Positions 5,970 through 17,596 of a stretch of DNA of 20,406 bases are shown here, in pieces. The DNA is taken from assembly GCA_030018135.1 (NCBI GenBank), contig JASEGJ010000019.1, positions 1-20,406 of the forward strand. Reading direction: 5' to 3'. The first letter of the stretch is position 1. Each line of letters begins with the position of its first letter. The notes below the pieces were generated by a model. The model saw nothing but the letters and a program-made list of their open reading frames with translations, did not search any database and was not told the DNA's origin. Origin of the DNA: Candidatus Hodarchaeaceae archaeon. GTDB taxonomy: Archaea > Hadarchaeota > Hadarchaeia > Hadarchaeales > Hadarchaeaceae. Made by a program: the position numbers and the translations under genes.

Positions 5970-6581
5970 TCAGGGGAGCAGAAGCCGCAGCAGCGCCGGC
6001 CTCTTCACCGCCCTCCGACGCCTAGCCAGCGAGCCGAGCGAGAACGCGACAACAGCCACCCCGGCCATGGCGATCGCAACCACGAGCAGGGGCAGGCGCG
6101 ACGGCGGCGGGGGGAGCTCGCTCGCGGTCTCTATCCTGGCTATAACGATGTACTCGATATCGAAGACCTCCCCAACTTCGGCCAGCCTCCTGACCGAGAT
6201 CCAAACCTCCCACCGCTGGCTAGTCAGGTTCTCCTGGCGCGGGATGTTCAGGTATATGTCGACGGTGCCGCTCGAGTTTTCGTCGATCTCGAGGACGGCT
6301 GGCGTCGGGATCACCCAGCTCGGGTCGGGAATGGCCTCGTAGCCCTCCCTTAGGTTCTCCCGTGGCGGTGCCAGCACGGAGAGGGCGAAGGTCCGCTTGA
6401 TGTTGTCGCCGTTACGTACGACGAGCTTCCTCTCGAGCATGTAGGGCTCGCCCATGGGTGGGGCGTCCTCGACCAGGAACTCGGCGGGCGACACGCTGAA
6501 GAGCTGCGGCCGGGCGAGCGTCATGGTCGCGGATATCACGCCCAGCGACAGGAGGGCTAGAGCTGAGATTTTGGCCCGCAT
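5970..6581 (-). CDS. Membrane-anchored Ig-like protein, paralogue B
   Basis: 203 aa from ATG 6579-6581, with GAGG 8-9 bases upstream. It has an N-terminal signal segment (MRAKISALALLSLGVISATMTLA), an extracellular beta-rich domain opening SVSPAEFLVEDAPPMGEPYMLERK, an N-E-N/S-S-G-T-V type core, and a C-terminal membrane helix (LLVVAIAMAGVAVVAFSLGSL) followed by an Arg-rich cytoplasmic tail (RRRRAVKRP). This is the layout of a surface protein anchored by its C-terminus. It lies 10 bases downstream of its paralogue at 6592-7224, so the two form an operon. No catalytic motif was seen. The domain recalls NEW3/DUF916-type Ig-like modules, but I do not recognise a specific family. Confidence 0.75.
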   Translation of the reverse strand: MRAKISALALLSLGVISATMTLARPQLFSVSPAEFLVEDAPPMGEPYMLERKLVVRNGDNIKRTFALSVLAPPRENLREGYEAIPDPSWVIPTPAVLEIDENSSGTVDIYLNIPRQENLTSQRWEVWISVRRLAEVGEVFDIEYIVIARIETASELPPPPSRLPLLVVAIAMAGVAVVAFSLGSLARRRRAVKRPALLRLLLP

Positions 6582-6591
6582 CCCGCCAGCC

Positions 6592-7224
6592 TCAGGGGAA
6601 TACCCGTCCCCTGGCCCTCCCCCTCGCCCTACCCCTATACCTCGTCCAAGCGCCAAACGCCAGCGCCGCCACGGCGATTCCGATCACCAAGGCGACGATC
6701 GCGGGGACCGGCAGCAGGGGCGGCGGGGGCGGCAACTCCGCGGTGGTCTCTATCTTCGCCCTGCAGATCAGCTCCGGCTCGAGAACTTCGCCGATCTCGG
6801 CCAGCCTCCTGACCGAGATCCAAACCTCCCACCGCTGGCTAGTCAGGTTCTCCTGGCGCGGGATGTTCAGGTATATGTCGACGGTGCCGCTCGAGTTTTC
6901 GCCGACCTCTATGACCTGGGGGATGAGGACGACCCAGTTTTCGTTGGGGATCGGCCCATAGCCCTCCCTGAGGTTCTCGGTGGGGGGCGGGAGCGCGGAG
7001 ATGATGAAGGTGCGCTTTATGCTGTCGCCGTTGCGCACCACGAGCTTCCTCTCGAGCATGTAGGGCTCGCCCATGGGTGGGGCGTCCCTGACCGTGAACT
7101 CCGCCGGCGATATGCCGAAGCCGACGGGCTCCTCCTGGGCGCGCGTCGGGGAGACCGTCGAGACGATCATGAGCAGGGTTGCGACGGCGGCCGCGAACCC
7201 CACCCAATTTTCGATATCCCCCAT
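6592..7224 (-). CDS. Membrane-anchored Ig-like protein, paralogue A
   Basis: 210 aa from ATG 7222-7224. The start is fixed by GGAGG 5 bases upstream, although the frame is open for 14 more codons. It has a signal peptide (WVGFAAAVATLLMIVSTVSPTRAQ), an extracellular domain opening FGISPAEFTVRDAPPMGEP, and a C-terminal helix (VPAIVALVIGIAVAALAFGAW) with a very basic tail (RYRGRARGRARGRVFP). It is about the same length as paralogue B and alignable along its whole extracellular part. Two stretches are identical at DNA level: 105 bp (6797-6901 against 6178-6282) and 48 bp (7040-7087 against 6421-6468). The minus-strand sequence TTTTTATCCC near 7255-7264 could be its TATA. Function unknown; probably surface adhesion or envelope assembly. 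Confidence 0.75.
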   Translation of the reverse strand: MGDIENWVGFAAAVATLLMIVSTVSPTRAQEEPVGFGISPAEFTVRDAPPMGEPYMLERKLVVRNGDSIKRTFIISALPPPTENLREGYGPIPNENWVVLIPQVIEVGENSSGTVDIYLNIPRQENLTSQRWEVWISVRRLAEIGEVLEPELICRAKIETTAELPPPPPLLPVPAIVALVIGIAVAALAFGAWTRYRGRARGRARGRVFP

Positions 7225-7329
7225 TATTTCCTCCAATACTCTATCGCATCGATGGGATAAAAACACTGGGGAGGCGCTCGCCGTGCCCTCGCTTCAAAGG
7301 GACTATCTCATCATTTATACAGGTGAAAA

Positions 7330-13207: not shown

Positions 13208-13369
13208 TCAGTGCTCACCCTGCGACTCCACGTATTTCTTCGGCACGTCCAAGCTCACCTGCCCCGTGGTGAGCAGGCAGTAGCTCTGGCTCCACAGGTG
13301 TCCGCCCCAGAGCTTTTCCTTGAGCTCTGGAAACTCGTGGAAGAGGCGGTTCGCGCTCGCGCCCTGCAT
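13208..13369 (-). pseudogene. IS200/IS605 TnpA transposase, C-terminal relic
   Basis: A 53-codon frame on the minus strand reads ...SANRLFHEFPELKEKLWGG, then HLWSQSYCLLTTGQVSLDVPKKYVESQGEH. This is the characteristic C-terminus of the Y1 HuH transposase TnpA: a 'KG.SA..LF..FP.LK...WGG..WS..Y' motif followed by the helix 'V...YVE.Q' that carries the catalytic Tyr (Y46 here). The HuH half is missing, and tandem TGA and TAG codons stand directly upstream. It is therefore an inactive fragment left by an IS200/IS605 element, next to a broken PIN gene. Confidence 0.85.
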
Positions 13370-15475: not shown

Positions 15476-15779
15476 TCACCCCGCCGAGAACGCGATGCGG
15501 GCGCCGGCCAGTGCGAGCACGATCGCGAGGGCCATCGAGGCCAGCGTCTCCGCCTGCCTGTGCCCGTAGGGGTGCCCCCTGTCCGCCCTGCGCTTGGATA
15601 CCGTCAATCCCGCGAAAACGCCCGCGGATGTCGCGGTGTCCGAGAGCGCATCCACGCCGGCCGCGATGAAAGCGATGCTGCCGAACAGCACGCCCGCCAG
15701 AATCTCCGCGGCCCCCATGACCGTGGTCGTCATCGCGGAGAGGACGGTAACCCGCTCCGCCGAATTCCCTCAACGGCAC
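15476..15779 (-). pseudogene. Cation diffusion facilitator (Zn/Mn efflux), N-terminal relic
   Basis: The main frame from 15733 reads MTTTVMGAAEILAGVLFGSI, then AAGVDALSDTATSAGVFAGL and RRADRGHPYGHRQAETLASM. It has the CDF signatures: a first helix, the metal-site 'D-x-x-x-D' helix, and 'HPYGH..AE' before helix 3. It stops at TGA after about 85 residues, whereas CDF proteins are near 300. A likely GTG start lies at 15779 (MPLREFGGA...) in another frame, joined if one base is removed around 15750-15760. The 3' end abuts the TnpB/IS605 remnant, which probably truncated it. A minus-strand TATA-like run lies at about 15790-15800. Confidence 0.7.
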
Positions 15780-15873
15780 GGCTCACCCCAATAAAAATTG
15801 TCCGCGATTCCCTAAAGGGCTATCCGCTGCGCGACGATTTTCGCCCGAGGGGCCAGCGGAACATCGTTCGGCT

Positions 15874-15921
15874 GTCACAGCTGTGACGTCGGGGCAGCGC
15901 CGCGGATGTCACACCTGTGAC
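15874..15921. repeat. Palindrome GTCACANCTGTGAC, two copies, left block
   Basis: GTCACAGCTGTGAC lies at 15874-15887 and GTCACACCTGTGAC at 15908-15921, with 20 bases between and a 34-base period. The second copy ends 23 bases upstream of the TATA box of the Cas2-like gene. The block also lies upstream of the divergent cation-efflux relic. Dimeric-regulator sites are the simplest reading. Confidence 0.85.
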
Positions 15922-15944
15922 ACGACGCGCGCGATTTTGCCCGC

Positions 15945-15951
15945 TTATAAA
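15945..15951 (+). promoter_or_regulatory. TATA box of the Cas2-like gene
   Basis: TTATAAA lies with its centre about 32 bases upstream of the ATG at 15980, so the predicted transcript has a leader of only a few bases. No good Shine-Dalgarno precedes this ATG, consistent with leaderless translation. This also favours 15980 over the longer open frame from 15917. Confidence 0.55.
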
Positions 15952-15979
15952 CGACCTCCACCCAAAGCCCTCGCGGGCT

Positions 15980-16204
15980 ATGCCGAACTCGTATCTGATC
16001 GTCTACGACATAAGGGAGCTCGACTGCGGGACGAGACAGCGGGTGAGCCGGCGCCTCAGAAAAATCCGCGCGGTGAGGCTTCGGCAATCGGTGTGGGAGT
16101 CGAGCAGACTGGCGGAGCTGAAGAACCTGGCCGACTCGATCGGTCTGGCCGGCGGGAAGGCGTTGGTGTTGGAGAAGCGAACAGTCCACTTGTCACACCT
16201 GTGA
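15980..16204 (+). CDS. Solo Cas2-like small protein
   Basis: 74 aa. The N-terminus PNSYLIVYDIRELDCGTRQR has the Cas2 first strand with D10, the acid that binds metal in Cas2 nucleases, followed by an Arg-rich helix (RQRVSRRLRKI). Next come VRLRQSVWESS, matching Cas2 'LQ.SVFE', and a helix (RLAELKNLADSIG) leading to a final strand (GKALVLEKRTV). Cas2 proteins are usually 80-100 aa, so it is short. The last residues HLSHL and the stop are encoded by the palindrome at 16192-16205, suggesting the original 3' end was replaced. No cas1, cas4 or standard CRISPR repeat is in the window. Cas2 forms the core of the spacer-integration complex, but other Cas2-fold proteins (VapD type) are RNases. Resemblance is by motif; the role is unknown. 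Confidence 0.6.
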   Translation: MPNSYLIVYDIRELDCGTRQRVSRRLRKIRAVRLRQSVWESSRLAELKNLADSIGLAGGKALVLEKRTVHLSHL

Positions 16205-16272
16205 CATCGGATGCCCGCGCTGGCGTCACACCTGTGACAGTGGCGATGGTGCAGCGCCGTCACACCTGTGAC
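16192..16272. repeat. Palindrome GTCACACCTGTGAC, three copies, right block
   Basis: Identical copies lie at 16192-16205, 16225-16238 and 16259-16272, with spacers of 19 and 20 unrelated bases (period 33-34). The block lies between the convergent ends of the Cas2-like gene and the PAPS-reductase-like relic. The palindrome carries a TGA on both strands: it supplies the Cas2-like stop (first copy) and the stop of the minus-strand frame (last copy). Because it is downstream of both genes, it is not an ordinary promoter operator. Confidence 0.88.
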
Positions 16273-16825
16273 ATCGCGCGAGCCGAGTGTGCCCAAAAAC
16301 AAAATTCCCGTGTGCGAGGGACCGAATTTTGTGCCGGAAACTTAAATTCGCGCGAAGGACAGCGCGGGGCAGCACAACAATCGAGGCATCCCGCGCAGGC
16401 GCCGCCGATCCGCGCGCGCCCGCCGACGAGCGAGATCGCCCCCGCGAGCGCGATTCGACGGGCGCCCTCGAGCTTGGGCGAGAACTCGAGCGCGAGCCTC
16501 CGGGGGTCGAAGCGCAGCAGGCCGACCACCTGACCGCCCACCACGACCTCGTCCGCCCTGTCCAGCGCGGGCAGGCGGTTGAGCACCACGAGCTTGTCGG
16601 GCGGGAAGAGCGGCCCTGCCGCCCCAAGGCCGAACTGTTTCGCGACGGTCGAGAGCAGGAGTTCGAGGTCGCCATCAAAGGCCGAAAATCGCCCGGCGGG
16701 GTCAGCGCCACCTCCCCCGCCCCGGAGCCGCATTTGTCGCACGCCTTACCCAAGGGCGGCGGGTTGCAGCTGGGGCACCAACCTAGGCCAAACCTGCCGA
16801 GTATGACCGGCCCTCCGCGGCGCAT
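16260..16825 (-). pseudogene. PAPS reductase-like protein, N-terminal domain only, frameshifted
   Basis: From ATG 16823-16825 the frame reads a zinc ribbon, GWCPSCNPPPLGKACDKCGS (C17, C20, C29, C32), then VALTPPGDFRP. This is the N-terminus of the archaeal phosphoadenosine-phosphosulfate reductase family, which begins 'WC..CN.P.....C..C....LTPPGD.RPA'. At 16680-16683 the frame breaks. One added C on the minus strand continues FDGDLELLLSTVAKQFGLG, then LNRLPALDRADEVVVGG and VGLLRFDP, still family-like. After GARRIALAGAISLVGG the similarity fades and the frame ends at 16260 in the palindrome. The PP-loop reductase domain, which should follow, is absent. GAGG precedes the ATG. It lies 10 bases after the aEF-1beta gene, in the same operon. 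Confidence 0.65.
16299..16332. repeat. Inverted repeat ACAAAATTC/GAATTTTGT
   Basis: Nine perfectly complementary bases (16299-16307 and 16324-16332) enclose 16 bases that can add a CCC/GGG pair of arms. The hairpin lies just right of the palindrome block, inside the non-homologous end of the PAPS-reductase-like relic. It could be a terminator for the Cas2-like transcript or an element end. Confidence 0.5.
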
Positions 16826-16835
16826 CCACGAAACC

Positions 16836-17093
16836 TCATAGGAGTCGCCTTACGTCCATCACTTGGACGTTGCCGACGCCGGGTATGCCCGCAAGCGCCC
16901 GCTCGAGCGGGTCCGTGCCCCCCGCGGCGTCCGGGACCACCGCGACCACGCGCAACGCCTTCAGCCCGAAGGCTATCGGCTCCTGCTCGACCGAGTGGGC
17001 CCTGACGCGCGCCCTGACCTCAGCCTCGATGCGCCTCAGGTCCACATCGGCGCTCTCCGGCATGAGCCGGACCACGACGGCCACCTCGCCCAT
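16836..17093 (-). CDS. ef1b: Elongation factor 1-beta, archaeal
   Basis: 85 aa from ATG 17091-17093. Archaeal aEF-1beta is a single small domain that promotes GDP/GTP exchange on EF-1alpha. Seen here are MGEVAVVVRLMPESADVDLR, the helix RIEAEVRARV, the strand AFGLKALRVVAVVPDAAGGTD, and the C-terminal IPGVGNVQVMDVRRLL, which match family length (about 88 aa) and order, including the terminal 'V...V..V.R'. It lies 8 bases downstream of the zinc-ribbon gene, the usual archaeal arrangement, and 10 bases upstream of the broken PAPS-reductase-like gene. Translation is presumably coupled. The frame is open further upstream, but that would overlap the zinc-ribbon gene. Confidence 0.92.
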   Translation of the reverse strand: MGEVAVVVRLMPESADVDLRRIEAEVRARVRAHSVEQEPIAFGLKALRVVAVVPDAAGGTDPLERALAGIPGVGNVQVMDVRRLL

Positions 17094-17492: not shown

Positions 17493-17596
17493 GGGCCCGT
17501 AGTCTAGCCTGGACAATGTTCAACATCCGGATAGGACACCAGCCTGCGGTCGTTGGCAGCGAGCTGGCGACCCGGGTTCGAATCCCGGCGGGCCCG
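17493..17596 (+). tRNA. tRNA-Arg (GCG) with two introns
   Basis: The acceptor arms GGGCCCG and CGGGCCC (17589-17595) pair fully, with discriminator G17596 and no encoded CCA. The T arm is CCGGG-TTCGAAT-CCCGG. The anticodon stem CCAGC (17539-17543) pairs with GCTGG (17563-17567); the loop CTGCGG + A gives anticodon GCG after removing 12 bases (17550-17561) at the canonical 37/38 site. The D stem GTCT (17502-17505) pairs with GGAC only if an extra 18 bases in the D-loop are also removed, giving the standard loop AGCCTGGATA. The 18-base intron lies within 17511-17531; its exact ends are ambiguous because GGA is repeated at both borders. The mature length is then 74, a normal value. Splicing is inferred, not shown. 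Confidence 0.85.

Follow-up and report, generated by a model that had tools for sequence, protein, structure and literature searches.

A stand-alone Cas2-fold gene and its dispersed palindromes look like an undescribed mobile or self-maintaining DNA repeat system in archaea

Cas2 is the scaffold of CRISPR adaptation, and CRISPR arrays are composed of 23-50-bp repeats and uniform spacers, with cas1 located next to cas2. A Cas2-like central domain linked to operator binding is present in the PaaX-type regulators, and integron cassette arrays consist of segments delimited by directly oriented palindromic sites. To our knowledge, Cas2 proteins are not known as transposases. Short palindromes associated with a small gene are described in the REP/RAYT systems, in which the REP/REPIN repeats are inverted (PMC3116915) and the RAYT genes are flanked by inverted REPs (PMC2817692).

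The locus presented here lies in a stretch of DNA of 20,406 nucleotides (the window) from a Hadarchaeota genome (G000; 1.11 Mb, 45 contigs, 93% complete). Its closest working likeness appears to be REP/RAYT, yet two of the defining features of that system are missing. As in REP/RAYT (PMC2817692, PMC3116915, PMC8266576), one small gene is bracketed by short palindromes, gene-less palindrome pairs and clusters are dispersed, mostly extragenic and with unrelated inter-palindrome segments, and several types occur per genome, each matching one gene, with gene and repeat co-diversifying. In contrast, the protein has a Cas2 fold and is not a Y1 HUH transposase (PF01797), the palindromes flanking the gene are direct (42:1) instead of inverted, and the copies, which are archaeal, number tens and not hundreds. 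With the CRISPR-Cas adaptation module, the locus shares Cas2 homology and direct palindromic repeats with unique sequence between them, but there is no Cas1, the repeats are 16 bp long, the spacers are irregular and single sites are dispersed. Similarly to integron arrays, direct palindromic sites bound segments, which are here mostly gene-less. The solo Cas2/VapD ribonucleases (BPSL1038, PMC10491678; VapD) are likewise small stand-alone proteins of the Cas2/VapD fold, and no palindrome association was found for them in the papers searched. Nor was any published report of palindromes paired with a solo Cas2 found in open-licence papers, an absence that is not proof.

Five exact GTCACA(G/C)CTGTGAC sites are present in the window, at the starts (15874, 15908, 16192, 16225 and 16259) and with the spacers given in the original prediction; the gaps between them are 20, 270 (containing the Cas2-like gene), 19 and 20 nt. 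The palindrome centre is GC in the first site and CC in the other four. Allowing up to three mismatches, 12 matches were counted against a shuffle mean of 3.7 and maximum of 11, so that 12 was reached in 0/100 shuffles. The features of the locus are the following:

15856..15873, + strand: left flank GCGGAACATCGTTCGGCT, common to the two-palindrome units at C22 and C6 (sequence comparison)
15871..16206, + strand: duplicated segment, comprising palindrome 1, spacer, palindrome 2, promoter, Cas2-like gene and palindrome 3 (from the C44 copy)
15874..15887, no strand assigned: palindrome 1, GTCACAGCTGTGAC (exact sequence match)
15888..15907, + strand: spacer 1, kept in the dispersed copies at C44, C22 and C6 (sequence comparison)
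15908..15921, + strand: palindrome 2, GTCACACCTGTGAC, ~23 bp upstream of the TATA box (exact sequence match)
15945..15951, + strand: TTATAAA, the putative TATA box for the Cas2-like gene, with the leader CCTCCACCCAAAGCC after it (read from the sequence)
15980..16204, + strand: solo Cas2-fold gene, 74 aa plus stop (ORF, profile matches, predicted fold, dN/dS)
16192..16205, + strand: palindrome 3, overlapping the stop codon of the Cas2-like gene (exact sequence match)
16225..16238, + strand: palindrome 4 (exact sequence match)
16259..16272, + strand: palindrome 5 (exact sequence match)
16273..16286, + strand: right flank ATCGCGCGAGCCGA, common to C22 and C6 (sequence comparison)

The window-type palindrome is TGTCACACCTGTGACA, and that of the C11 type in the same genome is TGTCTTAGGTAAGACA. 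The gene had been placed exactly between two palindrome blocks; it is indeed bracketed by them, but it does not merely lie between them, as palindrome 3 contains its TGA stop. The reported lack of cas1 holds: there is none in the window, and G000 contains only a cas1 fragment, at C40.

Taken alone, the window protein matches Cas2 models weakly (Pfam Cas2, E=0.006, below the curated cut-off). At the level of its family, however, Pfam Cas2 was matched by 15/15 members at E<=0.1 (best 1.2e-5), TIGR01573 by 13/15 and the PADLOC Cas2 models by 14/15. Alignment with hhalign to the CRISPR Cas2 of the same archaeal family gave a probability of 95% across the first 50 residues, and Cas2 proteins were the top Foldseek matches of the predicted fold. 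The VIA-align scores (Z of 7-8 for Cas2) were equally high for many other ferredoxin folds and therefore add nothing beyond the fold. The dN/dS values between copies and orthologues of the gene (0.10-0.33) indicate purifying selection and hence its maintenance. Therefore, from the family-wide matches, the predicted fold and this selection, the ORF is real and belongs to the Cas2 superfamily. The strand-1 Asp is invariant within our alignment (A3), and one protein outside it, G009:C40, has YN instead of YD. These solo proteins have ~70-95 aa, occur without Cas1 or CRISPR, and do not have the C-terminal part found in the CRISPR Cas2 of the same archaeal family. They consist of the Cas2 fold only, with no helix-turn-helix, in contrast to PaaX, which binds DNA by a winged helix; the PaaX architecture of an N-terminal winged helix followed by a Cas2-like domain was not found in the solo protein. 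PHROGs gave no convincing match, and Rfam none at all.

Further members were sought first with a protein query in 28 genomes from the phylum, and next with a profile in 297 archaeal genomes, palindromes playing no part in the search. Among the 22 genomes in the family of the window, 13 were found to contain solo Cas2-like genes, as were two Aenigmatarchaeota genomes, and several loci retrieved by protein alone later showed palindromes (e.g., ACTACGAACCTTCGTAGT at L124). When repeated near-perfect 16-bp palindromes were measured within 1.4 kb, with 100 dinucleotide shuffles per locus, clusters of 2-7 sites were detected at 15/20 full-length solo loci of the family, and at each of these the observed value was reached in 0/100 shuffles; loci at orthologous positions among the 20 are not independent. 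Three more carry degenerate TGTCTCAAATAGGACA-type sites, and the remaining two (G012:C8 and G001) have no palindromes. None of the 11 control loci, a set made up of weak hits, Y1 transposases and the cas1 or cas1-cas2 loci from this family, reached this measure. The association of the solo Cas2-like gene with palindromes is thus, in our judgement, virtually certain to be real. One of the two readings offered in the original prediction, that of repeats linked to a Cas2-fold protein, is accordingly strongly supported: the link is seen at ~18/20 family loci and also in another phylum, and the palindromes are specific to the locus. The miniature regular spacing in that reading is not recovered. 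Indeed, the period of 33-34 bases is correct for the window, but palindrome-to-palindrome spacers elsewhere range from 3 to ~160 nt. A scan of 61 genomes for the window-type palindrome pair, along the lines originally suggested, retrieved it only in G009. The types are listed here by gene:

TGTCACAssTGTGACA: G000 and G009
TGTCTKAnnTAAGACA: second gene of G000
TGACRYACGTRYGTCA and close variants: G005 and G002
TGTCAAACGTTTGACA: G014
TGACAAAGGTTTGTCA, TGTCCCATATGGGACA and ACTACGAACCTTCGTAGT: three genes of G012
TGTCTTATTTACGACA: G003
TGTCCTATTTRRGACA: G002, G005, G009, G010, G017, G018 and G021
TGTTATACGTATAACA and TGTAATACGTATTACA: two genes of G073 (Aenigmatarchaeota), with one palindrome at each start codon

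Most of the 16-bp types fit a single design, TGWCnnAnnTnnGWCA. Protein identity and palindrome similarity were correlated (Mantel r=0.68, p<=0.0001; r=0.62, p=0.0013 with one locus per type), a correlation to which the shared ancestry of the loci contributes. At several loci (L047, L050, L052, L053, L054, L057, L058, L115 and L111), the solo Cas2-like gene is directly 3' of one conserved small gene with no Pfam match. This gene, a neighbour shared at an orthologous position, was rejected as an obligate partner, being missing at other loci. In the same position, G014 carries another protein subtype and another palindrome, as if both had been swapped together, and G001 carries a solo Cas2-like gene without palindromes. 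In viral contigs, a two-palindrome scan did not find the window-type pair, and a protein search retrieved no Cas2-like member, the one weak match being a fragment inside an unrelated large ORF.

The palindromes are also dispersed far from the genes. In G000, 17 exact GTCACA(G/C)CTGTGAC sites were found versus 0 for the reversed control pattern, with ~0.07 expected by chance (12 fixed bases); two of the 17 (C1 and C27) are inside homologous coding sequence and may be unrelated to the palindrome family. More generally, TGWCNNANNTNNGWCA occurred 34, 21, 37, 20, 23, 9, 8 and 15 times in eight genomes with the solo gene and 3, 2, 2 and 1 times in four same-family genomes without it, its reversed control giving 0-5 per genome. 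Counting by hand, 32/34 sites in G000 belong to one of two palindrome types, those of the two gene types resident there, and 20/23 sites in G012 match the resident gene types. In G005, 28/37 sites match its two genes and five are of type TGTCGGATATTCGACA, for which no gene was found in this genome (83% complete). This further palindrome family (TGTCGGATATTCGACA/TGACGAATATCCGTCA) is located in G005, without a solo Cas2-like gene, at C56:48-206, C21:54262 and C31:39368. In Aenigmatarchaeota, TGTTATANNTATAACA is present in both gene-bearing genomes (3 and 2 copies) and in 0/10 other family members. The scattering that would suit a global regulator at ordinary promoters is therefore observed, but the scattered palindromes are linked to Cas2-like genes and are not confined to promoters. 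Copies are few (tens), and turnover may accordingly be slow or, in places, have ceased.

Comparison of the copies shows that near-identical blocks of 336, 66 and 105 bp, each set in unrelated flanking sequence, end within 2 nt of palindromes. The window segment 15871-16206 is 99.1% identical over 336 bp to G000:C44:37611-37946, and the homology stops no more than 2 nt from palindromes 1 and 3. The second G000 family contains an exact repeat, at C11:31525, of the 66-bp block of three palindromes at C11:21481; likewise, a 105-bp block of C41 is found again in C44. In both cases the flanks are unrelated and the block ends at palindromes. The dispersed units at C6 and C22 consist of left flank, palindrome, 20-nt spacer, palindrome and right flank, so that the window and these units compare as L-PAL-s-PAL-[cas2-PAL-s-PAL-s-PAL]-R versus L-PAL-s-PAL-R. 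The left flank before palindrome 1 and the right flank after palindrome 5 match those of C22 and C6, the right one over a short stretch (11/12 nt) once the palindrome itself is left aside. It therefore looks, with moderate confidence, as if the Cas2-like gene and three palindromes had entered such a unit at its second palindrome. Adjacent palindromes with an asymmetric centre have the same orientation in 42 cases and the opposite one in 1, which rules out REPIN-type inverted pairs. Some types are consistently imperfect (e.g., TGTCTTATTTACGACA) and fit double-stranded half-site recognition better than hairpins.

We explain these observations, with slightly more confidence than doubt, by a family of one-gene elements, each formed by a Cas2-fold protein and its own 16-bp palindrome and spreading copied palindrome-bounded segments. 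The protein likely binds its own palindrome; a Cas2-fold homodimer would recognise the two-fold symmetry of the site. Any segment delimited by a palindrome at each end, whether or not it carries the gene, would be copied or inserted elsewhere, apparently often into an existing palindrome, and direct arrays with unrelated spacers would accumulate beside the gene and as gene-less orphan arrays. Direct orientation would be expected if insertion took place at a palindrome already present, with the asymmetric centre of that palindrome determining the direction; it could also come from tandem duplication. Palindromes near the TATA box or start codon would probably serve autocontrol of the Cas2-like gene. 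Regarding the chemistry, a host or other enzyme could supply it, and the arguments that the Cas2-fold protein itself drives the copying appear to us evenly balanced. The bolder version, a minimal mobile element in which the dimer alone recognises the palindrome and excises and inserts cassettes, thereby building directly repeated arrays, is a tentative proposal that we rather doubt. If true, it would mean that Cas2 can act in recombination without any need of Cas1, and it would offer a possible model for how a Cas2-like protein became tied to palindromic direct repeats before CRISPR. Stand-alone Cas2-fold genes with locus-specific, genome-spread palindromes recur in Hadarchaeota and in an Aenigmatarchaeota lineage. 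Should the protein both bind and move its palindrome, they would represent a new DNA-recognition or mobility family with about ten natural protein-site pairs, in which the origin of the Cas2-repeat association is directly testable; should it only bind, they would still be a new sequence-specific DNA-binding family without a helix-turn-helix.

Alternatively, the Cas2-like protein could be a transcriptional (auto)regulator, with the palindromes as operators at its own gene and across a regulon. At many loci, palindromes indeed sit on the start codon or lie ~10-24 bp away from a TATA box, and a Cas2-like domain is known in the repressor PaaX, whose Pfam model PaaX_M matches 4/15 family members. 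Nevertheless, we consider this explanation unlikely. A regulator predicts few sites in convergent gaps, whereas orphan palindromes are equally frequent in convergent and divergent ones (6 each, with 12 in tandem gaps and 9 overlapping ORFs according to a crude ORF caller), and arrays are also located downstream of genes; plain promoter control thus fits poorly, as had been argued originally from the right-hand block. In addition, palindrome-bounded blocks are copied between unrelated flanks, the protein has no helix-turn-helix, and the sites are missing from related genomes that do not have the gene. Of the other original reading, an operator or partition-type array, the operator part may hold as a side function, because palindromes adjoin the TATA box or start codon, but it leaves the palindrome-bounded copying unexplained.

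It is decidedly unlikely that another transposase moves palindrome-ended miniature elements in trans, the Cas2-like gene being a passenger. The window-type units have outer inverted-repeat-like flanks such as CGTGCATATTTAGCT, and some copies may thus owe their movement to a conventional transposase; no target-site duplications were seen by eye. The C44 and C11-type copies, unlike these units, end at palindromes. A relic of a Y1 (IS200/IS605-type) transposase is located in the window (13220-13369, - strand) and is the only PF01797 match in G000. However, in genome-wide searches covering Y1 only, PF01797 was absent from G005, G012, G002, G014 and G010, all of which have palindrome families, and therefore Y1 cannot be the general agent. 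Moreover, matching between protein type and palindrome type is not expected of a passenger.

A VapD-like RNase toxin, with the repeats as RNA antitoxin as in type III toxin-antitoxin pairs, seems very improbable: VapD (6zi1) is among the structural matches and the repeats adjoin the gene, but they do not form tandem units and are scattered to places far away from it, and consistently imperfect types such as TGTCTTATTTACGACA would form weak RNA hairpins. Finally, a miniature CRISPR-like array that serves as a memory with Cas2 as its sole operator protein is hardly credible despite direct repeats and non-repeated spacers beside a Cas2-fold gene, given the cas1 situation described above, the irregular spacing, the dispersed single palindromes and the spacers common to copies within one genome; the system is not a CRISPR.

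The leader CCTCCACCCAAAGCC is also present at other loci of these genomes. Similarly, at Hadarchaeota loci (e.g., window 15945-15979), unrelated genes repeatedly carry a leader such as TTTATAAAGNACCTCCACCCAAAGCCTCGGCGGG between TATA box and start codon, possibly a common 5' leader hairpin. Immediately to the left of palindrome 1 is a truncated-looking cation-efflux (CDF) gene of 85 aa (15476-15733, - strand). The right neighbour (16226-16841, - strand), without a Pfam match, is apparently split across two frames (a zinc-ribbon-like start, then another frame), and its final codons extend into palindrome 5. At 17493-17596, a look-alike of an intron-containing tRNA gene has acceptor ends GGGCCCG...CGGGCCCG and a GGTTCGAATCC arm, and ARAGORN called no tRNA there. 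The window also contains a tandem pair of secreted-looking paralogues (5970-7266, - strand), of ~225 aa each, whose central parts are near-identical.
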